Below are positions 9,266 through 54,016 of a stretch of DNA of 64,000 bases, in pieces. The translations under genes were made by a program, and so were the position numbers. Position 1 is the first letter of the stretch. Each line of letters starts with the position of its first letter. The notes under the pieces are model-generated. The model was not told the DNA's origin and did not search any database. It was given only the letters and a program-made list of their open reading frames with translations. Origin of the DNA: Achromobacter deleyi (GTDB lineage: Bacteria; Pseudomonadota; Gammaproteobacteria; Burkholderiales; Burkholderiaceae_B); the NCBI RefSeq assembly GCF_016127315.1, contig NZ_CP065997.1, positions 2,542,001 through 2,606,000 of the forward strand, written 5' to 3'.

Positions 9266-9317
9266 GGCTCCCAGTATAGAGGCGCGGGCCCCTGGACGGG
9301 CAAGCCTGCGCCGGGAT

Positions 9318-29631: not shown

Positions 29632-29748
29632 GGTTCGGATTGCCTGTCGGGATTCGGCGTGAAAGGAGTGATGGACGGCGCTCGGCGGCGTTTTATGGAC
29701 GGGATGGCAAGCATAACCGGCAGGTATCGCAGCAGGTCGCATCCGAGG

Positions 29749-32639: not shown

Positions 32640-32672
32640 GGGATCTCCTTGGTTTCTGAATCGGCGGCGGGC

Positions 32673-34304: not shown

Positions 34305-34306
34305 GC

Positions 34307-36102: not shown

Positions 36103-36109
36103 GACTGGC

Positions 36110-37687: not shown

Positions 37688-37759
37688 GAGGTATTCCTCC
37701 TTGAATGGAATGGGCGGCATGGACGGATGAGGCCTTGCCGCTTGTGCTTATTGCTGCAC

Positions 37760-38629: not shown

Positions 38630-38745
38630 GGTCTAAACCACTTAATGAGAAAGATCCGCAGTATCCGCCAGCGCCAAACAAAAGAAAATATAATTTATTT
38701 TTAATTGGGGTAAAGTAAATTTTTATCCAAGAAATTCAATGCAAC
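38630..38745. promoter_or_regulatory. AT-rich divergent promoter region between esterase operon and LysR gene
   Basis: This 116-base gap contrasts strongly with its surroundings: the stretch from 38680 to 38735 is mostly A and T, with AATT-(seven bases)-AATT at about 38690-38704. Divergent placement of a LysR gene and its likely target operon makes this the expected shared operator. No exact T-N11-A box is claimed. Confidence 0.5.
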
Positions 38746-39621
38746 ATGAGTAGCATTCGTTTTTTAAGAACATTTATTGCCGTCGCCGAGCAAGGCAGCT
38801 TTGCTGCCGCCGCCGATCGGGTTGCACTGACTAGCGCCGCGGTTGGTCAGCAGATGCGTGCGCTGGAGGATGAAATGGGCCGTCCTCTGTTCGAGCGTAG
38901 CCATAGACAGACCGGTTTGAGCCGGGAAGGTCAGCTGCTATTGCCGCGGGCTAAACGTCTGGTAGCCGATTACGAAGCCATGCTGGAAGATCCTGAACGC
39001 GATTTGCGCATGGAGGGCGAGGTCACGGTTGGCGGTATCATTTCTGCCATGGGCTTGCTGGCCAATTGCCTGGTGCAGTTGAAGGCCGTTCATCCTCTGG
39101 TGTCGGTCACACTGACCAGTGCCCGCTCGGATGAATTAGCGCCGCTGCTACTGGCTGGCGAACTGGATGCCGCCGTGGTGGTGGAATCCCCTCGGCAAAA
39201 CTTCAAAGGCCTGAGCAGTTCACGGCTGTATGACGAACCCCTGATCTTGCTGGCCAGCGCCGAAGCCCAGTCCAGAACACCAGGCATCCGCGAGTTGCTG
39301 GCGACCCAGCCATATATCCGCTATGACCGCAATACGGCAACTGGCGCCAGAGCCGACCGAGTATTGCGCCGCTTGCGAGTCAAGCCTCAAGAAATACTGG
39401 AGCTCAACTCGATACTGGGCATTGCCGCTCTGGTGCGCCAGCAAGTGGGTGTCAGCCTGGTACCCCTGCTGCAACACGTCTATTGGGATCAGGATCCGGC
39501 CTTAGCGGTGTTACCGCTGCCGGGTCCGCAAGAATTCCGTAGCATTAGCATCGTTGAGCAAGGTCGCAAGCGTCATCTGACCAGCGAGATCAGTAAATTT
39601 CTGCGGGCGGCGCTGACATGA
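38746..39621 (+). CDS. LysR-family transcriptional regulator
   Basis: 291 residues. HTH at 2-60 (IRFLRTFIAVAEQGSFAAAA, DRVALTSAAVGQQMRALEDE) and a periplasmic-binding-like effector domain (GEVTVGGIISAMGLLANCLV onwards). ATG 38746 fits the family start. It is divergent from the esterase/importer operon, the usual arrangement for an activator of that operon. The following 170 bases to the convergent ABC exporter hold no gene that I can support. Confidence 0.9.
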   Translation: MSSIRFLRTFIAVAEQGSFAAAADRVALTSAAVGQQMRALEDEMGRPLFERSHRQTGLSREGQLLLPRAKRLVADYEAMLEDPERDLRMEGEVTVGGIISAMGLLANCLVQLKAVHPLVSVTLTSARSDELAPLLLAGELDAAVVVESPRQNFKGLSSSRLYDEPLILLASAEAQSRTPGIRELLATQPYIRYDRNTATGARADRVLRRLRVKPQEILELNSILGIAALVRQQVGVSLVPLLQHVYWDQDPALAVLPLPGPQEFRSISIVEQGRKRHLTSEISKFLRAALT

Positions 39622-39791: not shown

Positions 39792-41588
39792 CTACGAAGA
39801 AGAGCGAACCAGCTCAGCATAGACGCCGCGCTGCGCCAGCAGTTCTTCATGGGTGCCACGCTCCACGATCCGCCCGGATTGCAGCACTATGATCAGGTCG
39901 GCGTGGCGAACGGTGGATAGCCGATGCGCGATTGTGATGATAGTGCGGTCCTTCGAAAGGGTGTTCAAGGCTTCGGTCAGGGCCCGCTCGGTGCGAGTAT
40001 CGAGCGAACTGGTGGCTTCATCGAGCAACAGCACTGGGGGATTGCGCAGTATGGTGCGGGCCAGCGCCAAGCGCTGTTTCTCTCCGCCTGAGAAACGGTG
40101 TCCACGTTCTCCAACCAATGTGTCGTAGCCGTGTGGCAACCTGCGTACTGCGGCATCGAGTTGTGCTGCCTGGGCCGCCGCCACCAGTTCCTCGTCGGTT
40201 GCCTCCGCTTTGGCAAAGCGCAGGTTGTCGGCCACCGAGGCGTCCAAGAGGTACGGTTCCTGCGAGACCACGCCGAGCATTTCGGACAACGATTGGAAAC
40301 TGAGATCTCGGACGTCGATTCCGTCATAGCGGATCGAGCCGTCATCGACGTCGTATAGGCGAGCCAGCAAGTGGCCGAGTGTACTCTTGCCCGATCCGGT
40401 AGCACCGACGATAGCGACGTGGCTGCCAGCGGGGATGTCGAAGCTGATCTCCTCCAGGACGGGAGGGCTGCGCTTGTCGTAGCGGAAGGTGACGTTGTCG
40501 ACCTGCACCCGGCCACGCATGGATTCGCGAACCAGCTCCACTGCGGCCGCTCGTTCTTTGATTTCGATCGGCGTGTCCAGGTACTCGAAGATGCGGGCGA
40601 ACAACGCGCGGGTTGTGCGTACATCGCGTCCAAGCTGCAACAGTTGCTCGAAAGGCCACAGCAGCTGTTCCTGCAGGGCGATCAGGGCGACCAGAGTGCC
40701 GATGGTCAGTGGCGTGCTGCCGCTTATCAGCACCCCCCCGAGAAGCAAGGTCAGCGCGGGCAGGATCGAGAGCGTCAGGCCGATCAACGCCCACTGCCAT
40801 TCGCCTGCGGTCCGGGAGCGCACTTCCAGCGCGGCGACGTCTCGCGAAGTGCGCGAGAAGCTGTGGATCAATAGGCCGCTTCGGCGCAGAGTGCGGGCCA
40901 GGATGATGCCGGAGAGCGAGAGAGATTCCTGGATCGCCGACGAAAGGTCCGCCTGCCTGGCTTGCTGCGCGTAGATAATGGCCTCTCGCTGCCGGGCGAC
41001 TCGTTGGCTGATCATGACCGTCAATGGTACGACCAGCAACGAGAAGAGCGCCAACCGCCAGTCAAGCAGACACATGGCGATGGTCGTCATGAGCACCGTG
41101 CTGAGGCTGCGCGCCAGCTCGTTCCCCGCGTCGGTAACCAGCGACTGCAGTCCGCCGATGTCATTGGCGATGCGCGACTGGATTTCACCGGTGCGGGTGC
41201 CGGTGAAAAATCTCAGGGAAAGGGACTGTAAATGCGCGTATACCCGCACGCGCAGGTCATGCAGAATGGCTTGCCCGATTCGTGCCGACAGAATCGTCTG
41301 CAAGGCGCCGATCGCAGCGCCCACTATAGCCACCGCGATCATTCCGCTGACGAGCCAGAGCAGCATGACCAGGTTTGCATGGGGCAATGCTTCGTCGATA
41401 ACGGCACGCAGCATGAATGGCGAGGCCATGCTGGTCAACGAGCCTAGCAGAAGCAACACCACAACCAGTAGGATTCGTCGGCGATAAGGTGTGAACAAGG
41501 TGAACACACGCGCAAGCGAAACGTGCCTGACGGCTAGGTCTTCGTAGCACTCTGGGTCATTCCCGGGACGTTCATTCCGTGTTTGCAT
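39792..41588 (-). CDS. ABC exporter, fused transmembrane and ATPase domains (MsbA-like)
   Basis: 598 residues. Residues about 25-320 are a type I exporter membrane domain with six helices; about 345-590 are the ATPase with Walker A GATGSGKSTLGHLLARLYD, signature FSGGEKQRLALARTILR and Walker B VLLLDEATSSLD. It should work as a homodimer exporting a lipid, peptide or drug. It is divergent from the aminotransferase operon (247-base gap), so may belong to the same biosynthesis/export locus. GC and codon use are lower than in the core genes. Confidence 0.9.
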   Translation of the reverse strand: MQTRNERPGNDPECYEDLAVRHVSLARVFTLFTPYRRRILLVVVLLLLGSLTSMASPFMLRAVIDEALPHANLVMLLWLVSGMIAVAIVGAAIGALQTILSARIGQAILHDLRVRVYAHLQSLSLRFFTGTRTGEIQSRIANDIGGLQSLVTDAGNELARSLSTVLMTTIAMCLLDWRLALFSLLVVPLTVMISQRVARQREAIIYAQQARQADLSSAIQESLSLSGIILARTLRRSGLLIHSFSRTSRDVAALEVRSRTAGEWQWALIGLTLSILPALTLLLGGVLISGSTPLTIGTLVALIALQEQLLWPFEQLLQLGRDVRTTRALFARIFEYLDTPIEIKERAAAVELVRESMRGRVQVDNVTFRYDKRSPPVLEEISFDIPAGSHVAIVGATGSGKSTLGHLLARLYDVDDGSIRYDGIDVRDLSFQSLSEMLGVVSQEPYLLDASVADNLRFAKAEATDEELVAAAQAAQLDAAVRRLPHGYDTLVGERGHRFSGGEKQRLALARTILRNPPVLLLDEATSSLDTRTERALTEALNTLSKDRTIITIAHRLSTVRHADLIIVLQSGRIVERGTHEELLAQRGVYAELVRSSS

Positions 41589-41835
41589 CTCACGCTACCT
41601 ACGGGCGTTGACCGGATTCGTCCGCGAGCGGCACCTCGGATCGCCCAAAGCTCTGATTCTCGCAATCCTTTATAGAGATTCGTTCCCGCTGCTATGGACA
41701 CTGTGTGGAGATAGAGGGGGGGCTAGCAACAGCGACGTGCGGATGCGGGCTTCCATCCTATGTCCACAATTGCGCAACGATGTATCCACCTCGGCCACGC
41801 AAACTCTCCGCACCCATTACGGAGATTCCGCGTCC

Positions 41836-43212
41836 ATGTCCATCGACACCGCCAGCCTGCTGGCAGATGAAGCCCGTTATTGCTCTTTCGGCGATACGGT
41901 CCACTACGTAAACCCGCCCAAGATATTCGCCGGCTGCGAAGGCAGTTACATGTTCGACGAATCGGGTACGCCGTATCTGGATCTGCAGATGTGGTACTCG
42001 GCAGTCAACTTTGGTTATCGAAACGCCCGTCTTGAAGACGCCATGCGGCGTCAACTCGAAACGTTGCCCCAGGTCGCCAGCCAGTACCTGCATCCGACCA
42101 AGATCGAATTGGCCCGTGTCATCGCTCAAGACGCCGAAAAGAAGTGGGGCCGCGCCGGGCGCGTGCACTTCAACGTCGGCGGGGCTCAAGCCATCGAAGA
42201 TTCGCTCAAGATTGTGCGCAACGCCAGCCAGGGAAAGAGTTTGATGTTTGCCTTCGAGGGCGGCTATCACGGTCGTACGTTGGGCGCGTCGAGCATCACG
42301 TCCAGCTATCGCTATCGACGCCGCTATGGGCATTTCGGCGATCGGGCGCAGTTCATTCCGTTTCCGTATCCGTTTCGTCGCCCCAAGGGCATGACCGCTG
42401 AAGAGTACGCGGACTCGATCGTCAGGGAGTTCGCCCGAAAGTTCGAGAACGAGTATCACGCGGTCTGGGACCCGAAAGCCGCGCAGTGCGAGTATGCCGC
42501 CTTCTACATTGAGCCGATTCAGGGCACGGGCGGGTATGTGATTCCACCCGCCAATTTCTTCACCGGCCTCAAGCACGTGTTGGATCAGCACGGCATTCTG
42601 CTCGTGGTCGACGAGATTCAAATGGGCTTCTGGCGCACGGGAACGCTGTGGTCCGTGGAGAACTTCGGTATCAAGCCGGACGTGCTGGTGTTCGCTAAAG
42701 CGCTGACCAATGGCCTGAATCCGCTTTCCGGCCTGTGGGCGCGGGAGGAACTTATCAATCCAGAGGTGTTTCCCCCCGGTTCTACGCATTCGACTTTCGC
42801 CTCCAATCCCTTGGGGACGGCCATTGGCCTGGAAGTCATGAAGATGACGCATGAGGTCGACTTCGGGCGCCGAGTAAGAGATTCTGGTGCCTACTTCCTG
42901 GAAGGCCTGCGCGATCTGCAAAGGCGCCATCGAGAAATCGGCGACGTTGATGGTCTAGGGCTTGCGTTGCGCGCTGAAATATGCACGGAAGACGGCTATA
43001 CGCCCAACAAGGCCCTGCTGGATCGCATGGTCGACATCGGCTTGGCAGGGGACCTGGACTACCAGGGACGCAAGCGTGGTCTGGTGCTTGATGTGGGCGG
43101 CTACTACAAGAACGTGATCACGTTCGCGCCATCCTTGATGATAAGCCGTTCGGAAATAGACGAGGCACTGGCCCTGCTCGACCAGCTGATCGCGCGCGCC
43201 AGGCGAACCTGA
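41836..43212 (+). CDS. Class III aminotransferase of an unrecognised biosynthetic locus
   Basis: 458 residues, PLP-dependent. FNVGGAQAIEDSLKIV (about 113-127), EGGYHGRTLGA near 141-151, VVDEIQMGFWRTG near 257-269 and PLP lysine 288 in VFAKALTNGLNPLSG. ATG 41836 begins where class III homology begins; the open frame upstream has no support. It is the first gene of a three-gene operon: its TGA overlaps the next ATG (TGATG). The family includes ornithine, diaminobutyrate and putrescine aminotransferases; the substrate is undetermined. The 247-base leader contains a possible TATAGA -10 near 41672. Confidence 0.87.
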   Translation: MSIDTASLLADEARYCSFGDTVHYVNPPKIFAGCEGSYMFDESGTPYLDLQMWYSAVNFGYRNARLEDAMRRQLETLPQVASQYLHPTKIELARVIAQDAEKKWGRAGRVHFNVGGAQAIEDSLKIVRNASQGKSLMFAFEGGYHGRTLGASSITSSYRYRRRYGHFGDRAQFIPFPYPFRRPKGMTAEEYADSIVREFARKFENEYHAVWDPKAAQCEYAAFYIEPIQGTGGYVIPPANFFTGLKHVLDQHGILLVVDEIQMGFWRTGTLWSVENFGIKPDVLVFAKALTNGLNPLSGLWAREELINPEVFPPGSTHSTFASNPLGTAIGLEVMKMTHEVDFGRRVRDSGAYFLEGLRDLQRRHREIGDVDGLGLALRAEICTEDGYTPNKALLDRMVDIGLAGDLDYQGRKRGLVLDVGGYYKNVITFAPSLMISRSEIDEALALLDQLIARARRT

Positions 43213-44273
43213 TGCCCGCAAGCCGTGTTCTGCGGAACTCGCTCGAACCCAACGCCCTTGTCGAGTGCTTCGTAAAGCATCCTCCGGAGGGCTTCGAGAT
43301 CCTGCAGGAGTCTCCCTTGCTGGCGTTTGTCGCGCCGTTCGATCTGCTGACAACGGCGGACGATGCCCTCAAGGAGCGAGTGCGAGGTCTGCCCGGCTAC
43401 GCGCGGTGGTCGCGATGGCTCACCCTGCGCGCGAATTTCATTGGCACGACGGTGAGCGAGTACGCCTTGATTCCGGTCGATGCGGATCCGGCGGCCATGG
43501 TGCGAGCGCTAGGCCAGGGGCCTGGGCGGCGCCGCGGACTGACCATCATCAAAGACCTGCCGCACCACTCTCCGTTGCTTGGTGAGGCAGAGAACGCGAA
43601 CGCGGACGCTTTTGCGCAGGCCTGCGAGGAGCAGGGATGGGTGGTGGTCGAGGGCCAGGCGCTGGCGTACGTTCCCATTGATTTCTCTGATAGCGGCGCC
43701 TATGTGGAGCGCCTGCCCAAATCCGCGCGCCGGTACTTGACGCGAAAGCTGCGTGCCAGGGATCGGGTCACGGTCGAGAAGATTGTCACGGGAGCGGCAT
43801 TTTCGGACGATGCGCGAATCGATAGTTACTACGCCTTGTACGAAGAGGTCTACGCCCAGAGCAGCATCCACTTCGACCGTCTGACGCGCCCTTTTCTTGC
43901 GGCCTTGCTACGCGATGAAGCCGCTCAAGGGATCGTCTTTGAGTACCGTCACTCCGACACCGGCGACCTGCTGGGATGGAACCTCTGTTTTGACGACGGT
44001 ACGCGCCTGGTGGACAAGTATATCGGCTTGTCCTACCCCGGCTCGCGCCAGGTGAATCTGTACTTCATAAGCTGGATGGTCAACCTGGAATACGCCTTGC
44101 AACGAGGGCTGACCCACTACGTCGCAGGCTGGACCGACCCTGGTGTCAAGGCGATGCTGGGCGCGAAGTTCACGGCGACGCGCCACGCCGTGTACGTGCG
44201 CAATCCAGTGCTCCGCATGCTGGCGCGCAGCTTCCGTAAACACTTCACGGCGGATAAGCAATGGTTGCCTTAG
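43212..44273 (+). CDS. FemAB/BioF2-type GNAT acyltransferase
   Basis: 353 residues, cytosolic. The C-terminal half is a GNAT fold as in peptidoglycan-bridge FemAB and BioF2-like acetyltransferases: SARRYLTRKLRARDRVTVEK near 175-195, YYALYEEVYAQSSIHF, LLGWNLCFDDGTRLVDKYIG and YVAGWTDPGVKAMLGAKFT. The family moves an acyl or aminoacyl group onto an amine. The start overlaps the aminotransferase stop by one base and its end overlaps the next gene by 13 bases, so the three should be made in step. The donor and acceptor are unknown. Confidence 0.75.
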   Translation: MPASRVLRNSLEPNALVECFVKHPPEGFEILQESPLLAFVAPFDLLTTADDALKERVRGLPGYARWSRWLTLRANFIGTTVSEYALIPVDADPAAMVRALGQGPGRRRGLTIIKDLPHHSPLLGEAENANADAFAQACEEQGWVVVEGQALAYVPIDFSDSGAYVERLPKSARRYLTRKLRARDRVTVEKIVTGAAFSDDARIDSYYALYEEVYAQSSIHFDRLTRPFLAALLRDEAAQGIVFEYRHSDTGDLLGWNLCFDDGTRLVDKYIGLSYPGSRQVNLYFISWMVNLEYALQRGLTHYVAGWTDPGVKAMLGAKFTATRHAVYVRNPVLRMLARSFRKHFTADKQWLP

Positions 44274-45178
44274 AAGAAGCGTTCCACGCCGCAAGCCGCC
44301 CGGTGGTATTCGACACGGATGGCTCAGTCGGAGCGCTTCCCGCCGAAATCAGATTGATACTGAACGATGATTGGCGTGAAGCCATCCGCTATGGCTGTCG
44401 GCGCGACGTCTTGAGGGCATGCATGCGAAATCTGGAAAGCCGCATGCCGGCCGCGGGCGATCACGGCACCGTCTTTCTTGGCAGCGGTGATTTTCATCAT
44501 CTGAGCTTGCCGTTGGTCGAGCGTTGCGCACGGCTGCAGACGCACGCTGGCCTGCGCGTGGTTGTCCTGGACAATCATCCAGACAACATGCGGTTCCCTT
44601 GGGGAGTCCATTGCGGTTCCTGGGTTCATCATGTGGCTCGTATCCCTGAAGTGGCCCAGGTGCATATCATCGGCATCACGTCCGGCGATCTGGGGTTCGC
44701 ACACGCGTGGGAACACAAGCTAGGCTCCCTGCTGGCCGGAAAGATCTCTTACTGGAGCACCGGTGTTGACACGCGGTGGGCGCGATGGCTTGGACTTCAG
44801 GCACATTTCCATAGCTTTCCAGACCGGGAAAGCCTGATCCTGGCAGCCAGCGCGGCGCTGCGGGCCGAGCGTCGGCCTACTTATTGCAGTATCGACAAGG
44901 ACGTGTTGTCACAGGACGAGGTGCACACGAACTGGGACCAGGGCGTGCTCCGCCGTGCCGATGTGGCGGCTATCGTCAACGCGCTGCAGGGGTGCGTGGT
45001 TGGCAGCGACGTCACGGGTGACGTTTCCGTTTGGCGCTACCGCACCGCCTGGAAGCGTTGGCTGAGCGCGGCAGATGGGCAGGAGACTGCCCATCTGGTT
45101 GAGCATTTGCTGCCATGGCAGGCTCGCCAGAATGCCTTCAATTGGCAAATTCTTCGTATGCTCAACGCGGCGCGCTAA
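44261..45178 (+). CDS. Ureohydrolase (arginase/agmatinase)-like protein
   Basis: 305 residues. The three metal-binding motifs of ureohydrolases are recognisable though divergent: GSGDFHH (74-80, for GGDHS), DNHPDN (104-109, for DAHxD) and SIDKDVL (210-216, for SxDxDxxDP). Every metal-ligand position appears to keep Asp or His. Typical arginase substrate-loop sequence is not seen, so it may hydrolyse another guanidino or amidino compound. Last gene of the plus-strand operon, ending 12 bases from the convergent minus-strand operon. Confidence 0.72.
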   Translation: MVALEEAFHAASRPVVFDTDGSVGALPAEIRLILNDDWREAIRYGCRRDVLRACMRNLESRMPAAGDHGTVFLGSGDFHHLSLPLVERCARLQTHAGLRVVVLDNHPDNMRFPWGVHCGSWVHHVARIPEVAQVHIIGITSGDLGFAHAWEHKLGSLLAGKISYWSTGVDTRWARWLGLQAHFHSFPDRESLILAASAALRAERRPTYCSIDKDVLSQDEVHTNWDQGVLRRADVAAIVNALQGCVVGSDVTGDVSVWRYRTAWKRWLSAADGQETAHLVEHLLPWQARQNAFNWQILRMLNAAR

Positions 45179-45190
45179 ACGGCATCGTGT

Positions 45191-45583
45191 TCATTTTCGC
45201 CGTGGCTTCGAGGTCGAAGATGACTCGCTAAGGGCGAGGCATCCTATGCCAGCCAAGATCAACACGGTTCCGGCGACCTGCGGCCAGCCGATGGTTTCGC
45301 CAAAAAAGTAGGCCGACGCCAGCAGTACCGCGACAATCTCCAGGTACGATGCGGCGAAAGCGGGGCCAATGGGAGCATGCCTGAGCAAAACCATCCAGGC
45401 AAAAAATGCTCCCGCGTACCCGATAAAGGCGCCGTAGATCCAAGGCTGCCCGAATACCCGGCCCATCCAGGCCCACGACATCTCGAGCGGAAGCGCCTGC
45501 TCGCCCGCCAACTTGAAGCTCAGTTGCGCGAGGGTGTCGAACGACATCAATACCAGGAATCCGATCAAATAAAACCGCCGCAT
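45191..45583 (-). CDS. Small DMT/EamA-type membrane protein (second of a pair)
   Basis: 130 residues, four hydrophobic helices (about 5-22, 45-65, 72-92, 98-118) and a basic C-terminus. LRHAPIGPAFAASYLEIVAV and GETIGWPQVAGTVLILAGIG resemble single EamA/SMR repeats as in ArnE/ArnF or SMR pumps. It starts six bases after a similar gene, suggesting a heterodimeric flippase or transporter. Last gene of the eight-gene minus-strand operon. Confidence 0.75.
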   Translation of the reverse strand: MRRFYLIGFLVLMSFDTLAQLSFKLAGEQALPLEMSWAWMGRVFGQPWIYGAFIGYAGAFFAWMVLLRHAPIGPAFAASYLEIVAVLLASAYFFGETIGWPQVAGTVLILAGIGCLALSESSSTSKPRRK

Positions 45584-45589
45584 CGTTTC

Positions 45590-45961
45590 CTATCCTTTCA
45601 GGCCCACGACGGCCACGCCAATCGAAACCAATAAGATCCCCATTACCCGCAACGGCGTCAGGCGTTCCCCGAACACGATGCGACCGAGCAACATCACAAT
45701 CACGATACTGATCGATCCCAGCAGCACGCCGTCGGAGAGCGGTACCAGGGAAATGAATGCGAGCCAGAGCACGAACTCCATGGCATAGCAGACGAAGCCG
45801 ATCCATATCCAGGGCCTTCTTGCCATTCTCCGCCACCGATTCCCGCCTTCCCCCAGGTGTGGGTCGACCGCCGCAGCTTTGAATACGAGTTGTCCGATGC
45901 TGTCGAACAAGAGATTGAGAATCCACAGCATCATCACCAAGGGCGACATCGAGTCATTCAT
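45590..45961 (-). CDS. Small DMT/EamA-type membrane protein (first of a pair)
   Basis: 123 residues, four helices; FVLWLAFISLVPLSDGVLLG and GERLTPLRVMGILLVSIGVA match the EamA/SMR C-terminal pattern. The N-terminal helix has WILNLLFDSIGQLVFKAAAV, paralleled by FDTLAQLSFKLAG in its partner, so the two are probably paralogues. ATG 45961 overlaps the upstream hydrolase stop by eight bases. Confidence 0.75.
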   Translation of the reverse strand: MNDSMSPLVMMLWILNLLFDSIGQLVFKAAAVDPHLGEGGNRWRRMARRPWIWIGFVCYAMEFVLWLAFISLVPLSDGVLLGSISIVIVMLLGRIVFGERLTPLRVMGILLVSIGVAVVGLKG

Positions 45962-46898
45962 TCCGCTGGTTCCTGTCGGTTGAAGGTCGATCCGAGAGCT
46001 CGGCAATGAATGCGGCCACGCTGGTGATGACGGTCCGGCGCTCCTTGTCGATCGTGATCATGTGATAGCTGTCTTCAAGCAGCTGCAGACGTACGGAAGC
46101 ATTCTTTGCTCGTCGCACTATCTGCAGCGCGTTCGACACTGAAGCGATATCGTCGTGTCGGGCATGCATGACCAGGCAAGGCGCGCGCAGCGCTTTCATG
46201 TAACGCAATACCGACGACGCCAGCTTGCGCATTTCCACCACCGACCACCAGGGATTACCCGGCAATCCGGATGCGCGGCTATTTCCCTCGCGCATACTGG
46301 CAACGACCCGGGCGCGCAGTGCTTCGTCCTTGATTCCGTAGGGGGGCTGTTCCAGGAAGACGCGACCGCGACCGATGCCGAGCCCTCGAAATAGCGGCAG
46401 AAGGAAAGACAGTCTGGTGTAGTAGGGCATGCTCCAGCCATCATGGCGAAATGCGGGCGACAGTGCCAAGACACCGGCGACGTGGAATGGGCGCTCTTGT
46501 GCCAAGGCTAGCGCCAACAGCGCGCCCATCGACAGCCCGCCGACGAAGAGGCGATCGACCCGGCTGGCCAGGATGTCGGCGCCACGACGCACGCAGGCGA
46601 GCCAGTCCAGCCACGTCGTGGCGACCAGGTCTTCCTGTGTGCCGCAGTGCCCTGCGAGCTGTACCGCGAATACGCTATAGCCGAGAAGATGCAAGCCGCG
46701 CGCCAGTACGCGCATCTCGTTGGGGGTACCGGTCAAGCCATGGATGAGAAGCACCCCGGTACGGGCCCGGCTTCCTCGTCCTTCAAGAAAATACTCATTC
46801 CCAAGGGTTGGGACGTGGGGATGCTCATCTCGTGGGAAGTTTGCCCGCTTGCCAAGCGGCGGTGGGGCGGCGTTCGCGACGAAAGTGGGAAGGATCAC
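45954..46898 (-). CDS. Alpha/beta hydrolase, carboxylesterase/monoacylglycerol-lipase-like
   Basis: About 314 residues. VLLIHGLTGTPNEMRVLARG (oxyanion hole), VGGLSMGALLALALA (nucleophile Ser), HARHDDIASV (acid) and EDSYHMITIDKER (His) resemble Est30/Est1E carboxylesterases. GTG 46898 overlaps the HAD stop (GTGA) with AAAGGTGG upstream and is preferred to longer readings, which merely run through the HAD gene in another frame. No signal peptide was seen. Coupling to exporter genes suggests a tailoring or release step for the exported product. Confidence 0.8.
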   Translation of the reverse strand: MILPTFVANAAPPPLGKRANFPRDEHPHVPTLGNEYFLEGRGSRARTGVLLIHGLTGTPNEMRVLARGLHLLGYSVFAVQLAGHCGTQEDLVATTWLDWLACVRRGADILASRVDRLFVGGLSMGALLALALAQERPFHVAGVLALSPAFRHDGWSMPYYTRLSFLLPLFRGLGIGRGRVFLEQPPYGIKDEALRARVVASMREGNSRASGLPGNPWWSVVEMRKLASSVLRYMKALRAPCLVMHARHDDIASVSNALQIVRRAKNASVRLQLLEDSYHMITIDKERRTVITSVAAFIAELSDRPSTDRNQRNE

Positions 46899-47578
46899 GC
46901 CAACCACCTTTCTTCCCGGCGAATCGGAAGAGAGGAAAGGCGTAACAGGGCCTCGTCGAAGTCGAGAAAGGGGGCGTGGGGAATCTCGTTGCCGCGGCAG
47001 TATTCCAACAGCCTGGACTTGGCAAGCACGTAGTCGGCATTGGCGGAGACACAGTAATCCGAGGTTCCGTCGCCCACATAAAGGACGCGCTTGCCTGCCT
47101 TCCGGTGGTCGTTCAATTGCCCGCACTTGCAATTTGCGCTGGCGCAACCCGCTTGCGCCCACGGCGTTTCCAATTTCCAACACCGGAGCCCGGCAGGTAA
47201 AAGCTGGTTGGCCACGATAGGAATCTGTCCTAGGCCTTCCCGGGAAAGTACCGTGGAAATAGCGTGATCCAGCCCGTCGCTGACCACGCGCACTTCCATG
47301 CCCAGCTGAAAAGCATGCTGTACGAAGCGGTGAAACCCCGGGTCTATGGTGATCTGGTTCAGGCTGCTCTGAAGCTCCAGAGCGCTCATGTCCAGAAGGG
47401 CCACCTGCCGCCTCATGCACTCTCGAGAGCCGATTTCCCCTCGCTGCCATGCTTCTTCCAGCGCTTCCCACCCGGGACGACCATAGCGTACGAGAAGTGT
47501 GTCGGTAACGTCCTGATGGCTGATGGTGCCGTCAAAGTCGCAAAGGATCGTCCAATTGGAAAAAAAGGTCTCATTCAT
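46895..47578 (-). CDS. MtnX-like HAD-IB phosphatase
   Basis: 227 residues. Motif I WTILCDFDGTISHQD (Asp nucleophile), motif II VVSDGLD, motif III lysine near HRKAGKRVLYV, motif IV GDGTSDYCVS. The layout matches MtnX-like and phosphoserine-phosphatase-like HAD-IB enzymes. AGCASANCKCGQ contributes a Cys cluster (three Cys in eight residues) that is unusual and might bind metal. The start overlaps the adaptor-gene stop by eight bases. The substrate is unknown; no methionine-salvage genes are near, so MtnX function is unlikely. Confidence 0.82.
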   Translation of the reverse strand: MNETFFSNWTILCDFDGTISHQDVTDTLLVRYGRPGWEALEEAWQRGEIGSRECMRRQVALLDMSALELQSSLNQITIDPGFHRFVQHAFQLGMEVRVVSDGLDHAISTVLSREGLGQIPIVANQLLPAGLRCWKLETPWAQAGCASANCKCGQLNDHRKAGKRVLYVGDGTSDYCVSANADYVLAKSRLLEYCRGNEIPHAPFLDFDEALLRLSSLPIRREERWLA

Positions 47579-48485
47579 GAAATTTCACTATTACGTTTTG
47601 CCCAACGAGCGCGGGGATCGGACCGTCGAATTCCAGGATGCACTCGACCACGGGGGCAGGGGCGCGTTGCGTGTCCTGTTGTTGAAGGCCATTTCTATAG
47701 ATGGGGTTGATGCGGACTAGCCGCGCTGGCGGCCATGGGGATGCGTTTGCCGAGGGATCCTGGTCCGACGCCACGGTTGCCAGCATGCCCGGGCGCACCG
47801 AGGTGACGTACGTGGCATTGAGCTCCGCGCGCACAATGAGCGGGCGGCGCGGAAGGAGGGTCAAGGCAGCATCACCGGGTTTCAGATGGGAGCCGACCTG
47901 AGTGGAGACCTCCACCACGAACCCTTCCGCGGGCGCGCGCAGCGCCAGCTGTGTCACCGCGGCCTCGGCTTGCTTCAGGCGGGTTTCGGCCACCTCCGAT
48001 TCGGCACGCGCCACTGCGGCGTCGGACTTTGCCTCGGCCAATCTTTGCTGCGCTTCATCGGCCAACTGAGGCGAGGCCGCGCCTGAGCGTGCCGCTTCGC
48101 CGTAGCGCCCAGCAGCCCGCCGCAGCTCGGGCAGGCGCCGCTCGCTAGCCTCCAGCTTGGCGCGAGCCAGTTTCAATTCGGACTTCGCCAAGGATGCCGC
48201 CGCGGAGACCTGCTCACTTTCCATCTTCAGCAGCACCTGGCCGCGCTCGACGCGAATGCCCTCGCGCGCGTCCATGGCGATGACTGATCCTGCAATTGTC
48301 GGCGCCAGCACAATCAGCCCACCTTCGACCTCGACTTTTCCGCGCGCGACCGCGACGGGGCGCGGGCCCTGGCTTTCGGTGCGTTGCGTGGAAGCGTCCG
48401 CCGTGTCGCGCTCCGAGCAGGCGCAGAGCGCCAGGGTGCATGCGATCACTAAAATGTGCCAGCGCGCGATGGCTGAACCCCTCAT
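47571..48485 (-). CDS. HlyD/DevB-type membrane fusion lipoprotein
   Basis: 304 residues. Lipoprotein signal ending LALCAC-SE (lipobox Cys near 22), beta-barrel/lipoyl regions (VEGGLIVLAPTIAGSVIAMD), then a coiled-coil hairpin from about 90 to 185 rich in Ala, Glu and Lys, and a return lipoyl half (LRAPAEGFVVEVSTQVGSHL). It bridges the inner-membrane ABC exporter and outer-membrane channel. It overlaps the ATPase gene by four bases. DevB-like adaptors accompany DevC/DevA proteins, as here. Confidence 0.86.
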   Translation of the reverse strand: MRGSAIARWHILVIACTLALCACSERDTADASTQRTESQGPRPVAVARGKVEVEGGLIVLAPTIAGSVIAMDAREGIRVERGQVLLKMESEQVSAAASLAKSELKLARAKLEASERRLPELRRAAGRYGEAARSGAASPQLADEAQQRLAEAKSDAAVARAESEVAETRLKQAEAAVTQLALRAPAEGFVVEVSTQVGSHLKPGDAALTLLPRRPLIVRAELNATYVTSVRPGMLATVASDQDPSANASPWPPARLVRINPIYRNGLQQQDTQRAPAPVVECILEFDGPIPALVGQNVIVKFHE

Positions 48486-49249
48486 TCCTCTACTCCTCGA
48501 TGATCTGGCATATTGCGTGTATCGCTGCGTATGCTCCCGTCTTCCATGTAGATGACACGATCGGCATGTTTCACCAGGCGCGGGTCATGGCTGACGCACA
48601 GTACGGTGGCCCCGCGCTTGCACGCGAAGCGGCGCATGATGTCGACCACGCGCTGCCCGTTTTCGGCGTCCAGCGAACTGGTCGGCTCGTCCGCGAACAG
48701 CAGGTCTGGCGCTTTGGCGATCGCACGGGCAATGGCCACCCGCTGCTTTTCCCCGCCGGAGAGCTGGGCGGGCCGCAAATGGGAGCGATGTGACAGCTGG
48801 ACCTCGTCCAGCGCATGCCTGGCAAGCGCGAGGCTGTCGGCGTTGCGGACTCCCAGATAGCCGAGCGGCAGTTGCACTTGCTCCAGCGCCGTGAGCGCCG
48901 GAAACAGATTGAACCCTTGAAACACGAACCCCGTGTGTCTCAGCCGGAAAGCCTCTTGCGCCTTGCGGCTCATGCTGCCAACGTCATGCCCGAGCGCCCG
49001 TGTATGGCCGCTATCTGGACGCTGAAGGCCGGAAAGCAAGGAAAGCAGGGTGCTTTTCCCGCATCCCGACGGACCTGAAATCAAAGTCAGTTCGCCGGGG
49101 TACACGTCCAACGACAGCCCTTGCAACACCGGTGCGTGTACCCCGCCCGAAGAAAAGGACTTCACGAGTCCGACCGCTTCCAGGCTAGGGGTGGCGACAG
49201 CATTGGCCGAGGGGCTATGCCGGCTGGGGTGTGACATATCCGAGTCCAT
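48482..49249 (-). CDS. ABC exporter ATPase, DevA/MacB-like
   Basis: 255 residues. Walker A SGPSGCGKSTLLSLLSGL near residue 63, FVFQGFNLFPALTALEQ, signature LSGGEKQRVAIARAIA, Walker B LLFADEPTSSLDAENG. This is the MacB/LolD/DevA type that works with FtsX-like permeases. The ATG at 49249 shares a base with the permease stop (TGATG); ATG 49237 is an alternative. The first 25 residues are polar and not conserved. Confidence 0.9.
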   Translation of the reverse strand: MDSDMSHPSRHSPSANAVATPSLEAVGLVKSFSSGGVHAPVLQGLSLDVYPGELTLISGPSGCGKSTLLSLLSGLQRPDSGHTRALGHDVGSMSRKAQEAFRLRHTGFVFQGFNLFPALTALEQVQLPLGYLGVRNADSLALARHALDEVQLSHRSHLRPAQLSGGEKQRVAIARAIAKAPDLLFADEPTSSLDAENGQRVVDIMRRFACKRGATVLCVSHDPRLVKHADRVIYMEDGSIRSDTRNMPDHRGVEE

Positions 49250-50385
49250 CAACGAAGCAACAAGGATGGGTCGGTGCGGAACAGGGCGCGAATGGCCATC
49301 AGGCTGGAAAGCAATGCCATCAACCCAATCATGACAATACAGGCCAGGGCCGCCGTCGGTGTCATGGCGACCGGGACGTGATAGGCTGCCGCGGCCGCCA
49401 ACAGAAGCGCGCTTGCGATAGCCGCAATCAGTAAGCCCAAGCCCCCTACCAGGCAAGCTTGTTCGATCACTACCCGGGAAAGCGCGTAGCGGCTGGCACC
49501 AAGGGCGTTGAGCGTGGCGTACTCGCGTGCCGATGCCGCTACGACAGCCGAGAACGATTGACTGGTGATCACGACACCGACGATGCAGACAATGAGCGCC
49601 ATGAACATTACAGCCGTCCCCGCGCCCGTATCCAGCAGCCAATAGCGCTGGGAGCGTTGCGCGAACTCCCGCGCCGTCCAAACCTGGAGTGGCCCGAAAC
49701 TCGAACCGACCTTGGCCAGTCTCGCATACGCCGCCTGGATACGACTGGAGTCGGCAAGGCGCGCAACGTAATAGGTTTTTCCTTGATTGGCCTGCTGCGG
49801 CGCAATGGCGGTTGCGGTTTCCAGCGACGCCAATACGTTCACCCCGCCCAGGCCGCGCAGGCCAGGCAGCGTGGCGACAACACGCACCGCGTAGCGATTG
49901 ATCCAGGCCCGCCCACCCACGCTCACACCCAGCGAATCGAGGTCTGCGCTGTCTACGATGACCGCGCCTGGCTCGCGCAGGCGTGCTCGGAGTTCCGGGG
50001 GAAGTAGCCTGGAGAAGAGCATCGCCTCGCGATCAGTCGAAATGCCGGATAAATACACGGATACGCTGCCCAATCCGGGAGACTCGGGGGTCCAATCGCC
50101 ATCGACCCATTGATAGGGCTCAACCGCCACGACGTCCGGGTCCATGCGTAACCACACCTCGGCATCCGCGCTTACAGAACGGCCGAAATTGACGCTCTGT
50201 GTGCCTGGATAGCCCGCCCAGATATGTCCCGAAGACTCCCGGACGTACAGGGCCGCCGTGCCGAATATTCCCAGTACCAAAGCTGCCTGGGTTGCCAGCA
50301 TCAAGCCGGTGAACCCCACGGATAGCACCACCGGCACGAAGCGTTTCCATTCGTGTATCAGTGTCTTGCGCGCCAGGGCGATCAT
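49249..50385 (-). CDS. ABC exporter permease, DevC/FtsX type
   Basis: 378 residues. One helix at about 20-42, a periplasmic MacB-like domain to about 255, then three helices (about 262-285, 310-335, 345-365). AASAREYATLNALGASRYAL near 285-305 is the FtsX-family cytosolic coupling segment. With the DevA-like ATPase and DevB-like adaptor it makes a tripartite exporter such as cyanobacterial DevBCA, which exports glycolipids. The cargo here is unknown. ATG 50385 overlaps the outer-membrane-factor stop. Confidence 0.87.
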   Translation of the reverse strand: MIALARKTLIHEWKRFVPVVLSVGFTGLMLATQAALVLGIFGTAALYVRESSGHIWAGYPGTQSVNFGRSVSADAEVWLRMDPDVVAVEPYQWVDGDWTPESPGLGSVSVYLSGISTDREAMLFSRLLPPELRARLREPGAVIVDSADLDSLGVSVGGRAWINRYAVRVVATLPGLRGLGGVNVLASLETATAIAPQQANQGKTYYVARLADSSRIQAAYARLAKVGSSFGPLQVWTAREFAQRSQRYWLLDTGAGTAVMFMALIVCIVGVVITSQSFSAVVAASAREYATLNALGASRYALSRVVIEQACLVGGLGLLIAAIASALLLAAAAAYHVPVAMTPTAALACIVMIGLMALLSSLMAIRALFRTDPSLLLR

Positions 50386-51776
50386 GGATTCGCTTCCCCG
50401 CCGTCGTCGAGCGGTGCGCCGCCCAACGCCTTGTATAGCGCGACGAACGCCAATGTTCTGGAGCCCCGCGCCAGTTCGGTCTTTGCCCGCGCTTCGAGAA
50501 AGGAACGCTTTTCCGCCAGCGTCTCGAAGTCGCTCGACAAGCCGAGCGCGGCCAGTTGGCGCTGTGCAGCGACGCGTCGAGCCTGCGCTTGGCCGGCTTC
50601 CTCCAGCGCCTGGACCCGCTCACGCAGTCGCTCAAGCGAAGACAATGCTTCTTCGACTTCGGATACTCCGGTCAGTACGGCCTGTTGGTATCCCAGTAAC
50701 GCCGCATCGATCCCACGCTCGCTGGCTACGACCTGGGCCCGTCGCACCCCCCAATCCCATAGCGGAATATCGATCGTTGGTCCCACTGACGGCACGAAGT
50801 TGCTGTTGGAGCGGCGATTCTGGGTGACGTTGTAGGAATATAGGATCGAGCCTCCCAGGCTTAGCCGCGGGTACATCGCCGCGCGGGCGATCCCCAGACT
50901 CGCGGCCGCCCGCAGCACTTCAGCCTCGGCTTCGCCAATATCTGGCCGGGTTCTAAGGAGATCAGCCGGAATGTCATGTAGAGCGAAAGACGTTAGCGTG
51001 CCTGGTTGCACGGCTTCGTACCACGCCGGGTCGGGACCGCTTCGGCCGAGCAGTAGCGCCAGCGCCCGCGCAGCACGGTCCGCCGTCAGGCGCATGGCGG
51101 CGAGTTCTGACTGCGTTTGCCAACGTTGCAGGCTGGCGGCATCCACCTCTTTTTGACTTCCGAGATGGGCGTTCAACCTGGTCAGGGTGAAACGTTCGGC
51201 TTTCGAGTCGATGGCTTGTATCTGACGCAGGATCTCTATCTGTCCATTCGCCACACCCAGATCGAGATAATTGCGCACCACTGCGGCGACGAGCGATACG
51301 CGCAGGCCTTGTTGGCGCGCCTCGGCCCGCTCCAAATCCGCCTGGGCCAGAATCCGTCCGCTCTCCGCGGCGCCGAACAGGCCCAATTCCCACGCCATGT
51401 CGAGGCCGACGTTGAAGTATGAATCCCGTGCGGCGGCATCCTTGGCTGGATGAGCACCTGCCGTAAGCCAGGGAAGGAATCGCGCATTCGCTCGGCCGGC
51501 AAGCTGACGTTCCGCTTCCAGCAGGCGGGCGGACTGAGCAAGGTCCAAATTGTGATGCAAGGCTTCTTCGACCAATCTGTTCAATCGGGAGTCGTCCAGC
51601 GCTTTCCACCAGGACCGCAAATCCACGGGCCGTCCTGCCGGCTCCGCCGGCTCCGACCAGGCGCTGGGCACCTGGCCGGGCATTTTCGGTACCGAAACGG
51701 CAGTGCAGCCGAGTTGCGTGGCAATGGCTAGCAGCGTGATAAAGCGGATCCTGGATAGAGCGGACGGGCTTGTCAT
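50382..51776 (-). CDS. Outer membrane factor (NodT/OprM-type efflux lipoprotein)
   Basis: 464 residues. Signal region ends near TQLGC-TAVSVP, a likely though non-ideal lipobox. Two OEP repeats follow: SWWKALDDSRLNRLVEEALH, NLDLAQSARLLEAERQLAG and later DIPADLLRTRPDIGEAEAEV, IARAAMYPRLSLGGS. ATG 51776 is set by the signal peptide. First gene of the eight-gene operon, 143 bases downstream of a response-regulator gene. It should form the channel for the DevBCA-like exporter. Confidence 0.9.
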   Translation of the reverse strand: MTSPSALSRIRFITLLAIATQLGCTAVSVPKMPGQVPSAWSEPAEPAGRPVDLRSWWKALDDSRLNRLVEEALHHNLDLAQSARLLEAERQLAGRANARFLPWLTAGAHPAKDAAARDSYFNVGLDMAWELGLFGAAESGRILAQADLERAEARQQGLRVSLVAAVVRNYLDLGVANGQIEILRQIQAIDSKAERFTLTRLNAHLGSQKEVDAASLQRWQTQSELAAMRLTADRAARALALLLGRSGPDPAWYEAVQPGTLTSFALHDIPADLLRTRPDIGEAEAEVLRAAASLGIARAAMYPRLSLGGSILYSYNVTQNRRSNSNFVPSVGPTIDIPLWDWGVRRAQVVASERGIDAALLGYQQAVLTGVSEVEEALSSLERLRERVQALEEAGQAQARRVAAQRQLAALGLSSDFETLAEKRSFLEARAKTELARGSRTLAFVALYKALGGAPLDDGGEANP

Positions 51777-51919: not shown

Positions 51920-52669
51920 CTATACGGGTTGCGGCATGCGCCGGTCGCTGGTGGCAAGGCTTGGCACAAATACGTAACCTTGTCCCCAGACTGTCTTGAT
52001 ACAAGAGGGGCCGGGATTTTTCCCGTTCAGCTTGCTGCGTAACTTGCACACGCATACATCGATCCTGGTCTTGCTGCCGATGTGCCTGGAGCGGGAGTCA
52101 CCCCGCGTCAGCCTTGTCAGCTCCTCTCGCGACAGGACTTTCCCCGCATGATTGGCCAATACCCACAAGATCTCGAACTCCGCCGTGGTGAGTGGCACGG
52201 TTGTGCCGTCGCCCCATATCGCCGAGCGGGTGCGGCGGTCGATGGTAAGCGCTCCGAGTACCAACTTGTCGCGTCGGATTTCCGCCGTGATCTGCCGGCG
52301 CAGCAGCGCGCGAATTCGTGCCAGCAATACCCGTGGCTGTACCGATTTGACGACATAATCATCTGCACCGGACTCCAGGGCCTGGATGTGGCTGCGACTG
52401 TCGCTGGCGGCGCTCAGCACCAGGATCGGAACCTCCGATGTAGCTCTGAGATCTTTGCATACTTGCAAGCCGTCGTAGTCAGGAAGCTGTAAATCGATAA
52501 TCGCTATCGCCGGACTGTGGTGTTCGAAGGCCCGCGTTGCATGCTCTCCTCGGTATGTCTGGGCAACCTCGAATCCGTGCAGGCTGAGGAACCGCGCGAC
52601 CAGGTTCGACATTTTCGGATCCTTTTCAATCAGCAGAACCTTTGTCGATTGAGCGGAGGCGAGGGACAT
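51920..52669 (-). CDS. OmpR/RstA-type response regulator without its own kinase gene
   Basis: 249 residues. The receiver has acidic residues EKDP (about 15-18), phospho-acceptor Asp59 in IIDLQLPDYDG, and the K in GADDYVVKSVQP. The C-terminal winged HTH (VPLTTAEFEILWVLANHAGK; IDVCVCKLRSKLNGKNPGPS) is of OmpR type. It lies directly upstream of the exporter operon and downstream of the kinase gene (246-base gap with no gene). It may be a second partner of that kinase or an orphan regulator of the export operon. Confidence 0.87.
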   Translation of the reverse strand: MSLASAQSTKVLLIEKDPKMSNLVARFLSLHGFEVAQTYRGEHATRAFEHHSPAIAIIDLQLPDYDGLQVCKDLRATSEVPILVLSAASDSRSHIQALESGADDYVVKSVQPRVLLARIRALLRRQITAEIRRDKLVLGALTIDRRTRSAIWGDGTTVPLTTAEFEILWVLANHAGKVLSREELTRLTRGDSRSRHIGSKTRIDVCVCKLRSKLNGKNPGPSCIKTVWGQGYVFVPSLATSDRRMPQPV

Positions 52670-52915
52670 AGTCAGTTCCTTTGGTCGAGAGATGTTCGCG
52701 ACCGCGGCAAAATTGCCGGATAGGGAAAGTATGTCGAGAGCATGACCCACGCACGTGGTGGTTCAGTGCATGCTTTGCGGAGGTTTGATGTAGTGGATCG
52801 TCAAATACGCGTTTCGCATCTGGTTCGACGGAACTCGTCTTGCCCGAAGGAGAGGCGTCCGAGCCAGGCAGGCGCGGGACGATGCCGCCGGTTTGATGGA
52901 GGCCCGAGCGTAGCG

Positions 52916-54016
52916 CTACGAGTCCGCCGTCTTGTCGCTAGCCGACAGTGCGATGGGCCAGCGTAGTTCGAAGCAAGAACCGCCGGCCGCGGACGGGTGG
53001 CACGACGCACGACCTCCGTGCGCCTGGGCGATGGCTGCGGCTACGGCCAGGCCCAACCCGCTTCCGCCACTACTACCGGTGTCCTTGCCGTCAGTCCGCT
53101 GCAGGCGTCGAAATGCGGTAAATACCTGCGAAGCAAACTCCTTCGGGATGCCGGGGCCTTCATCTTCAACCTGCAAGATGCTCCATTCATCCTCCAGCCG
53201 AGTCCGGATAGTGACCACGCCGGGCACCGCATGCCGGCGCACATTCTCAAGCAGCGCGAGCAGCGCTTGGCGGATGCGCACTGGGTCGCATAGTACGGCT
53301 CCCGCTTGCAGATCGAGTTCTGGGCGATGGCCCGATGCCTGCAGGGCATGCGTGCAGAAATCAACCACTGAGGCCACCTCGATGGAAAGATCGGTCTCTT
53401 GGATGTGCAAATCGAGATGCCCGTTTTCGGCCAGGCTGACCGCGCGCAGGTCTTCGATCAGTCGCGATAGGCCCTCAACCTGTGCCAACAGGCTGCGGAA
53501 CAGAGATTCTTCGGGATAGAAAACGCCTTCCGCCAACCCTTGCAGGCGCCCGCGCAGAATCGTTACTGGCGTGCGCAATTCGTGGGCAATTGCCGCATTC
53601 CAGAAAGAGCGCTCGTGAGTCATGCGCTGCAATTGGCTGGCGAGCGCATTGAAGTCATCCGCCAGCGCGGACGCCTCTCCAAGTGAACGGTCGCCCGCAT
53701 CCGCGCGCGCGCTCAGATCGCCGTTGGCCACCAGACGGATGCTGTTGGCGAGCGAATTGAGTGGAACCAGGATGCGTCGCGCCAAATGAAGGGCGACAAC
53801 GGCGGCCAGCACTAATGCAACCACCGTGGTCAATATCATCCAGACCCACTCGACATCCGTCACCTCCCATTCAGACGTCTCTGTGATGGTCTCGGGCCAA
53901 TACTTGTCCGCGAGGTAAAACACGGCATAGGAGGTCAATATCAGGAACAGCACCACCCCAAACGCCAGGGCAACCATGCTCAGCACGATCTGGCGGCTCA
54001 GTCCGGCAGGTTTCAT
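52916..54016 (-). CDS. Sensor histidine kinase, AdeS/BaeS-like
   Basis: 366 residues. Two transmembrane helices (about 12-34 and 57-79) flank a short periplasmic loop; HAMP about 80-133; dimerisation/phospho-acceptor IAHELRTPVTILRG with His145; ATPase motifs LLENVRRHA (N box), VEDEGPGIP, FTAFRRL and GGSGLGLAVAAAIAQAHGG. It overlaps the AdeR-like regulator by four bases, so the two form an operon. The short loop suggests membrane-stress or small-compound sensing. Confidence 0.9.
   Translation of the reverse strand: MKPAGLSRQIVLSMVALAFGVVLFLILTSYAVFYLADKYWPETITETSEWEVTDVEWVWMILTTVVALVLAAVVALHLARRILVPLNSLANSIRLVANGDLSARADAGDRSLGEASALADDFNALASQLQRMTHERSFWNAAIAHELRTPVTILRGRLQGLAEGVFYPEESLFRSLLAQVEGLSRLIEDLRAVSLAENGHLDLHIQETDLSIEVASVVDFCTHALQASGHRPELDLQAGAVLCDPVRIRQALLALLENVRRHAVPGVVTIRTRLEDEWSILQVEDEGPGIPKEFASQVFTAFRRLQRTDGKDTGSSGGSGLGLAVAAAIAQAHGGRASCHPSAAGGSCFELRWPIALSASDKTADS

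Follow-up and report, generated by a model that had tools for sequence, protein, structure and literature searches.

Amine-bearing molecules of the bacterial surface have been described in several systems. In A. baumannii, ornithine and lysine aminolipids have been linked with tolerance of colistin and cationic peptides (PMC11828411), and for the C. jejuni capsule, transamination of dihydroxyacetone phosphate, amide formation and dephosphorylation are described as taking place in turn via serinol phosphate (PMC11800397). Here, we analysed a stretch of 64,000 nucleotides from Achromobacter deleyi (assembly GCF_016127315.1, contig NZ_CP065997.1, positions 2,542,001 to 2,606,000 of the forward strand; hereafter the window, to which all coordinates refer), which harbours a cluster of biosynthesis, transport and regulatory genes. 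The cluster is one recurrent system, and with moderate confidence we assign to it the production of an amine-headgroup lipid, i.e. an aminolipid in the wide sense, as well as its flipping, its transport outward and its regulation. This assignment is based on the gene set, its co-inheritance, the folds of two protein models (a GNAT-type transferase and an arginase-fold hydrolase, below called GNAT and ureo) and the intact catalytic residues. A preliminary description of this DNA had not recognised the gene set as a described pathway. In agreement with this, the literature searched, which left most subscription journals and all bioRxiv preprints outside its coverage so that a description elsewhere is possible, held no description of it, and the cluster contains no siderophore domains of the non-ribosomal peptide synthetase or polyketide synthase (NRPS/PKS) kind.

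Gene content and recurrence of the cluster

On the plus strand, the genes for a class III aminotransferase (AT), GNAT and ureo overlap by 1 base (AT/GNAT) and 13 bases (GNAT/ureo) and converge, 12 bases apart, on a minus-strand series running from 51776 down to 45191, i.e. outer-membrane factor (OMF), permease, ATPase, HlyD lipoprotein, HAD-type phosphatase (HAD), alpha/beta hydrolase and two EamA/DMT halves (EamA-2 and, next to ureo, EamA-1). Order, strands, overlaps and convergent gap are present in the list of open frames as the preliminary description had claimed, and its family names agree with our Pfam and NCBIfam searches. The AT frame opens at 41608, with the likely start at the ATG at 41836. 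AT, GNAT, ureo, EamA-1, EamA-2, hydrolase, HAD, HlyD, ATPase, permease and OMF are counted below as the eleven structural genes. The features are as follows (PLP, pyridoxal phosphate; RR, response regulator):

39792-41588, minus strand: MsbA-like gene (open frame)
41836-43212, plus strand: AT, class III PLP enzyme of aminotransferase fold, core gene (PF00202, 241.6 bits)
43212-44273, plus strand: GNAT, FemAB/MprF-fold transferase (353 amino acids)
44261-45178, plus strand: ureo, arginase-fold metal hydrolase adjoining GNAT
45191-45583, minus strand: EamA-1, EamA/DMT half 1 (ArnE/ArnF-like), putative flippase subunit (PF00892)
45590-45961, minus strand: EamA-2, EamA/DMT half 2 (ArnE/ArnF-like), putative flippase subunit (PF00892)
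45954 to about 46907 (start uncertain), minus strand: alpha/beta hydrolase, esterase/lipase-like, core gene (PF12146, 76.7 bits)
46895-47578, minus strand: HAD, MtnX-like HAD-IB phosphatase, core gene (TIGR01489, 86.2 bits, cut-off 81.55)
47571-48485, minus strand: HlyD-type periplasmic adaptor, lipoprotein by its LCAC signal (PF13437, PF16576)
48482 to 49249 or 49237 (start), minus strand: DevA/LolD-like ABC ATPase (PF00005; best NCBIfam match DevA)
49249-50385, minus strand: FtsX-type ABC permease, DevC-like (PF02687)
50382-51776, minus strand: OMF (TolC/OEP), probable lipoprotein (PF02321)
51920-52690, minus strand: RR1, second OmpR-family response regulator, membership doubtful (PF00072/PF00486)
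52916-54016, minus strand: sensor histidine kinase of the associated two-component pair (PF00512/PF02518)
54013-54780 (start uncertain), minus strand: RR2, OmpR-family response regulator (PF00072/PF00486)

The protein database contains 1945 relatives of ureo, and 402 relatives are encoded in the scanned named genomes; the surroundings of the best 80 of these 402, at identity and coverage thresholds of our own choosing, form the named loci (20 shorter than 20 kb, 60 longer). GNAT adjoins ureo in 79 of the 80, with a median gap of 30 bases. Homologues that never neighbour each other, which would have refuted the earlier claim of a single system, were thus not the outcome. AT is found in 70, EamA-1 in 62, EamA-2 in 60, the hydrolase and HAD in 57 each, HlyD, permease and OMF in 49 each and the ATPase in 46 of the named loci, and all eleven structural genes occur together in 41/80, or in 38/60 of the loci longer than 20 kb. 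AT, GNAT and ureo stand side by side again across many genera, with protein identities of 47-91%, and therefore their arrangement goes beyond chance. Carriers include Acidovorax, Paracidovorax, Variovorax, Xylophilus, Delftia, Comamonas, Paenalcaligenes, Pigmentiphaga, Luteibacter, Dyella, Rhodanobacter, Pseudomonas luteola, Brevundimonas and Salinisphaera, and the gene set recurs in alpha-, beta- and gammaproteobacteria, on chromosomes as well as on plasmids of rhizobia and agrobacteria. The complete set is present, for instance, in Methyloversatilis universalis EHg5 (L085) and in Variovorax boronicumulans (L039, L046 and L054).

The divergent MsbA-like exporter, which the preliminary description had counted in, was rejected as a member: relatives of at least 45% identity occur in one of the 80 named loci only, the sole case being a 51% copy at the same place in Brevundimonas (L090). 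Added to that description is the kinase/RR2 pair (52916-54780), relatives of which recur beside the cluster elsewhere, with a kinase relative near AT in 12/26 sampled loci. RR1, located between OMF and this pair, has only matches of about 30-36% in other loci and is probably not a member. At L022 (14711-17906), ArnT-like, EamA-like and DegT-family genes directly adjoin the two-component genes of the cluster.

Co-inheritance was followed in an order sample (300 genomes) and a phylum sample (398 genomes), which overlap in G000, G133, G171 and G204. The order sample holds strong ureo matches in nine genomes, strong GNAT matches in the same nine and AT (E <=1e-150) in 13, including all nine; the phylum sample holds strong ureo matches in 16 genomes and AT in 25, including all 16, i.e. 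nine of the 25 AT genomes have no ureo match. Weak matches were excluded from these counts, i.e. 3 of 12 for ureo in the order sample (E 2e-9, 7e-5 and 9e-5), 1 of 17 in the phylum sample (G354, E 7e-4) and 13 of 22 for GNAT (E 6e-20 or weaker). With genomes treated as independent and descent ignored, the association of AT and ureo gives P = 1.5e-14 in the order and P = 1.5e-22 in the phylum sample. Since the range of ureo is nested inside that of AT, the GNAT/ureo pair looks like an addition to a wider AT core.

Within the genus of the window, ureo is present in 2/43 genomes, the other carrier (L189) showing the same architecture. The GC content of the window, about 0.69 at first, drops to about 0.61 near 27 kb and thereafter lies at 0.58-0.64 (2-kb steps) up to the window end. 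Given the patchy presence and the fall in GC content, the locus was probably gained, and 27000-64000 looks like acquired DNA. The left flank is found at 83-85% identity over nearly its whole length in four of the 42 other genomes of the genus, and a whole copy of the right flank in none of the 42; the stretch 36110-39621 shows 83-85% identity in 4/42. AT also occurs in 34 plasmid records (tBLASTn), 17 of them predicted conjugative; gene content was taken from nine of the 34, and eight of these nine carry HAD, AT, hydrolase, GNAT, ureo and EamA. Further to the left, a 297-amino-acid frame at 29191-30084 corresponds to the barrel of a TonB-dependent receptor in its last part only and is perhaps a remnant.

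Core enzymes and predicted product

The AT-centred count covers 26 loci out of the 34 distinct AT-positive genomes of both samples (outside it are G153, G661, G448, G524, G568, G665, G440 and G444). HAD and the hydrolase both lie within about 10 kb of AT in 24/26, the exceptions being L019, which ends at a contig edge, and L208, which shows neither; the innermost core is HAD-AT-hydrolase. Its catalytic residues are intact: the PLP lysine of AT is present in 94/94 homologues, the catalytic Asp pair of HAD in 78 of 80, i.e. in all that cover the site, and the Asp and His of the hydrolase in all 80 homologues covering them, whereas the nucleophile is Ser in 74 of 81 homologues and Cys in the other seven. 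By alignment to 1sf2, the gate of GABA aminotransferase (Glu211/Arg398) is replaced by Thr/Thr in AT, the two threonines being found in 93/93 (one further row gapped) and 94/94 homologues and in 7/7 further ones. Such a gate would suit substrates of the amine or carbonyl kind that have no alpha-carboxylate. That the loss of the gate is peculiar to AT was rejected, because another class III enzyme of the window is also without it (Ser, Val). A second class III aminotransferase gene lies within 31323-37720, adjoining an ABC importer of the peptide type with a double ATPase, two permeases and a binding protein.

Around the shared core, the genes for the lipid chain vary. GNAT or a ketosynthase (KS) was found in 22/26 AT-centred stretches; KS occurs in 10 and an acyl carrier protein (ACP) in 8 of the 26, every ACP locus also having KS. 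KS without GNAT/ureo is seen in L171, L172, L205, L209 and L210, and GNAT without ureo in L169, L170 and L207. A clean split into a GNAT/ureo and a KS/ACP type was rejected, since L021, L022, L128 and an X. sacchari plasmid harbour both sets, KS and ACP lying between AT and GNAT on the opposite strand in the latter. A CFA synthase-like gene is present in 18/80 named loci and a fatty acid hydroxylase in L023/L024 (only NCBIfam match OlsE, 59 of 475 bits, far under cut-off), while the plasmid loci inspected hold a desaturase in 4/9 and a CFA synthase in 3/9. On rhizobial plasmids, the genes of the operon follow one another as HAD, AT, arginase family, EamA, fatty acid desaturase, hydrolase, GNAT, EamA and CFA synthase, with MipA on the opposite strand; two Agrobacterium plasmids show the same core minus desaturase and CFA synthase, followed by TolC, permease, ATPase and HlyD. 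In the one inspected of five Bartonella plasmid records holding AT (L181, 9950-15999), AT, GNAT and a ureo relative have an MBOAT O-acyltransferase gene nearby. Finally, L172 (933-13458), from a GC-poor genome of 1.28 Mb, carries HAD, AT, EamA, hydrolase, KS, EamA, DUF2147, OMF, HlyD, ATPase and permease in an operon divergent from a regulator/kinase pair and without GNAT and ureo. Elsewhere, that genome encodes a weak GNAT relative, which is probably unrelated because it is shared with two sister genomes where AT was not found. This variation of lipid-chain genes around a shared core points to an amine-headgroup lipid.

On this basis, we propose the following lipid pathway, including the succession of its steps, a keto-phosphate as the substrate, the direction in which the product moves, control by the two-component pair and a benefit. 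AT would aminate a small carbonyl compound, which may be a keto-phosphate (dihydroxyacetone phosphate, for example), and AT and HAD together would yield an amino alcohol or like headgroup from the carbonyl phosphate, with the amine coupled to an acyl chain, the phosphate stripped by the HAD enzyme and an ester trimmed or transferred by the hydrolase. In the present subtype, the GNAT/ureo pair would decorate the headgroup, i.e. GNAT would add an activated residue, the C-N bond of which ureo would hydrolyse. After cytosolic synthesis, the lipid would be flipped at the inner membrane by the ArnE/ArnF-like EamA pair and carried outward by the lipoprotein HlyD, the FtsX-type ABC transporter and the OMF, with MipA serving the outer membrane in some loci and the kinase/regulator pair controlling the locus. 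The likely benefit would be a changed surface charge or barrier and, by analogy with the A. baumannii aminolipids, the lipid may confer tolerance of cationic peptides. The flippase role is suggested by the EamA halves, whose best NCBIfam match is ArnF, under its cut-off; in the first hydrophobic segment, an Asp and a Lys are invariant in 74/74 (EamA-1) and 71/71 (EamA-2) homologues of at least 40% identity. This likeness to ArnF, as well as the ArnT-like and DegT-family genes beside L022, also supports the assignment to an aminolipid.

The GNAT model has a tandem GNAT fold and is by structure alignment nearest to aminoacyl-tRNA-dependent transferases, closer than to N-acyltransferases, so that the residue added by GNAT may be an amino acid and not a fatty acid. 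The earlier reading, in which a FemAB/BioF2-type protein would acylate an amine, is changed to this extent. The sequence profile of GNAT has no significant relative in the PDB, and NCBIfam gave no family match for GNAT or ureo. The nearest solved folds (VIA-align comparisons) are proclavaminate amidinohydrolase for ureo and streptothricin synthases for GNAT.

The ureo model shows the alpha/beta arginase fold, at 11-20% identity to ureohydrolases in fold alignments. All binuclear metal ligands (H79/H80, D104, H106, D108, D212 and D214 of the GGDH, DxHxD and DxD motifs) are kept in 106/106 homologues, and the arginase motif DxxE reads DxxG[D/E]. An invariant Gly253 takes the ungapped place of the guanidinium-holding Glu (Glu277 of arginase I), and residue 254 is D in 56 and E in 50 of the 106, with A in the distant ureo-like protein of L025. 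This Glu need not be lost outright, since a one-residue gap in the hhalign profile comparison would pair residue 254 with it and thus allows for a shifted carboxylate. For the guanidine-derived product that the preliminary description had named, the fold and metal ligands are in place, but this Glu is not at its customary position. The L025 stretch (4439-10430) contains a distant GNAT, two EamA halves and the ureo-like gene beside mlaA, squalene-hopene cyclase and phosphorylase-family genes, and AT and HAD were not found there. The genome of the window holds four other arginase-family genes (L001-L004, 180-307 bits), and the family search did not list ureo itself.

A bolder version of the pathway, which we regard as quite improbable, would have GNAT draw on arginyl-tRNA to attach arginine to the lipid amine that results from the action of AT, HAD and hydrolase, whereupon ureo would release urea from the lipid-bound arginine, giving an ornithyl headgroup that no tRNA supplies directly, and the separate EamA halves would flip the ornithylated lipid. 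The near-invariant adjacency of GNAT and ureo (79/80 loci found by ureo) would be explained if arginine were attached and then turned into ornithine. The GNAT relatives without ureo in L169, L170 and L207, the displaced glutamate of ureo and the other genes between ureo and GNAT in rhizobial plasmid operons weigh against this version or leave it undecided.

Several observations count against the assignment to an aminolipid as a whole. No fatty-acid gene (KS, ACP, CFA synthase, desaturase or hydroxylase) was found in this cluster, the lipid being suggested by relatives; the earlier description of the product as possibly acylated is supported in part, by those relatives and not by the cluster itself. 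Neither GNAT nor KS is present in 4/26 AT loci, i.e. L125 (which starts at a contig edge), L204, L206 and L208, the last having AT but none of the other genes. Exporter genes lie near AT in only 4-5 of the 26 sampled loci, an undercount due to stretch ends and missed divergent exporters; the DevBCA-like part is not universal, and MipA is found in some loci instead. By threshold, the kinase occurs in 22/80 and RR2 (at least 40% identity) in 27/80 named loci, many stretches ending there. A shared regulator site upstream of AT and OMF, sought by an expectation-maximisation (EM) search, was rejected, as the signal looked like GC-rich coding bias; it was not confirmed on the OMF upstreams, with 18% above the 95th percentile of shuffles. 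Lastly, a DegT gene, present in 55/80 named loci, is missing from the window. A displaced DegT gene elsewhere in the genome was also rejected, because only distant matches were found (best copy E 3e-20).

Alternative functions

Tripartite ABC pumps export small molecules, and the product could instead be a secreted metabolite, i.e. an amine- or guanidine-derived antibiotic or signal leaving by the pump, with the lipid genes of the relatives being unrelated neighbours. The antibiotic pathways from which the nearest solved folds of ureo and GNAT come, and the patchy distribution (2/43 genus genomes; 34 plasmid records with AT) are in line with this. We nevertheless consider it unlikely, given that the cluster proteins include no NRPS/PKS assembly line, that the operon itself includes desaturase and CFA synthase genes on rhizobial plasmids, that the ArnE/F-like halves and MipA suggest an envelope task and that an exporter version without GNAT/ureo in a streamlined genome of 1.28 Mb would be unusual for an antibiotic. 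We know of no Arn function for HAD or a class III aminotransferase, which already speaks against a modification of lipid A or a surface sugar parallel to the Arn pathway, in which DegT would make an amino sugar, GNAT and ureo would add and remove a protecting group and EamA would flip the carrier-linked sugar. Although the frequent DegT genes, the ArnE/F-like halves, the genes adjoining L022 and the two-component pair would all suit such a role, DegT is absent here, in L189 (same genus) and in 8/9 plasmid loci inspected, and no sugar-nucleotide enzyme or glycosyltransferase recurs among the named families, so that it is very unlikely. Detoxification and efflux of polyamines or guanidines, with ureo hydrolysing a guanidine compound, AT and GNAT disposing of the amine and the EamA pair exporting it, deserves little credence, since it leaves HAD, hydrolase, KS and ACP without a place, nine of the 25 AT genomes of the phylum sample have no ureo match, and neither a guanidine riboswitch nor any other Rfam match was found in the window at gathering scores.

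Two further candidates were rejected, i.e. a siderophore or NRPS/PKS cluster (no assembly-line domain among the cluster proteins in Pfam) and known anti-phage defence (no PADLOC family for any of the seven proteins given, which did not include exporter and regulators).

An amine-bearing product made by the cluster and exported across the envelope, as had been claimed, is thus probable. If the assignment to an aminolipid is true, the cluster would make such a lipid for the envelope by a new route, complete with a dedicated flippase, exporter and regulators. It would also provide genes for lipids that are perhaps so far only unnamed spots in lipid profiles, and a way to address surface charge in bacteria living in soil or with plants. 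In addition, the chemistry of the GNAT/ureo pair is possibly new.

Comparison with known systems

We know of no aminolipid pathway that uses a class III aminotransferase, a HAD enzyme, an arginase-fold enzyme or an EamA pair. The OlsBA/OlsF and other amide-linked aminolipids, as treated in a review (PMC11631085), are likewise phosphorus-free, amine-bearing envelope lipids made with GNAT-fold transferases, and a word search of the main text gave no aminotransferase, arginase, flippase or transporter. A hydroxylase distantly resembling OlsE was found in two relatives of the locus; the cluster proteins themselves gave no OlsB-, OlsA- or OlsF-type match (Pfam for all, NCBIfam for ten; this search covered the cluster, not the rest of the genome). 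The serinol-phosphate route of C. jejuni (Cj1437, Cj1438, Cj1435; PMC11800397) also employs an aminotransferase, an amide-forming enzyme and a HAD phosphatase in turn; its product is a capsule amide, and the parallel drawn here is one of logic.

Among single enzymes, AT differs from the GABA-type, glutamate-dependent class III aminotransferases in being without the Glu211-Arg398 gate. Ureo shares the fold and all binuclear-metal ligands with arginase, agmatinase, proclavaminate amidinohydrolase and guanidinase, but differs by its 11-20% identity and by DxxG[D/E] for DxxE.

With the Arn pathway, the cluster has in common a pair of small DMT halves, a transaminase and a nearby two-component pair (PmrAB in Arn), whereas ArnT, ArnC and ArnA are absent among the cluster proteins and the ArnE/ArnF models stay far under cut-off (21.5-27.7 against 92-99 bits, i.e. 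27.7 and 25.9 against 99, and 21.5 against 92, in NCBIfam). The exporter resembles DevBCA-TolC, the cyanobacterial glycolipid exporter, and MacAB in combining a HlyD adaptor, an FtsX-type permease, a LolD/DevA-like ATPase and a TolC-type OMF in one operon. The DevBCA-like exporter claimed before therefore holds as a likeness, but both NCBIfam scores, DevA with 212 against 295.8 and DevB with 42.1 against 129, fall under the family cut-offs (permease and OMF were not among the proteins given to NCBIfam). In comparison with MprF and FemXAB, GNAT is a lone protein of 353 residues that consists of GNAT-type domains only, without the membrane flippase domain of MprF, and flipping would here fall to the separate EamA halves.

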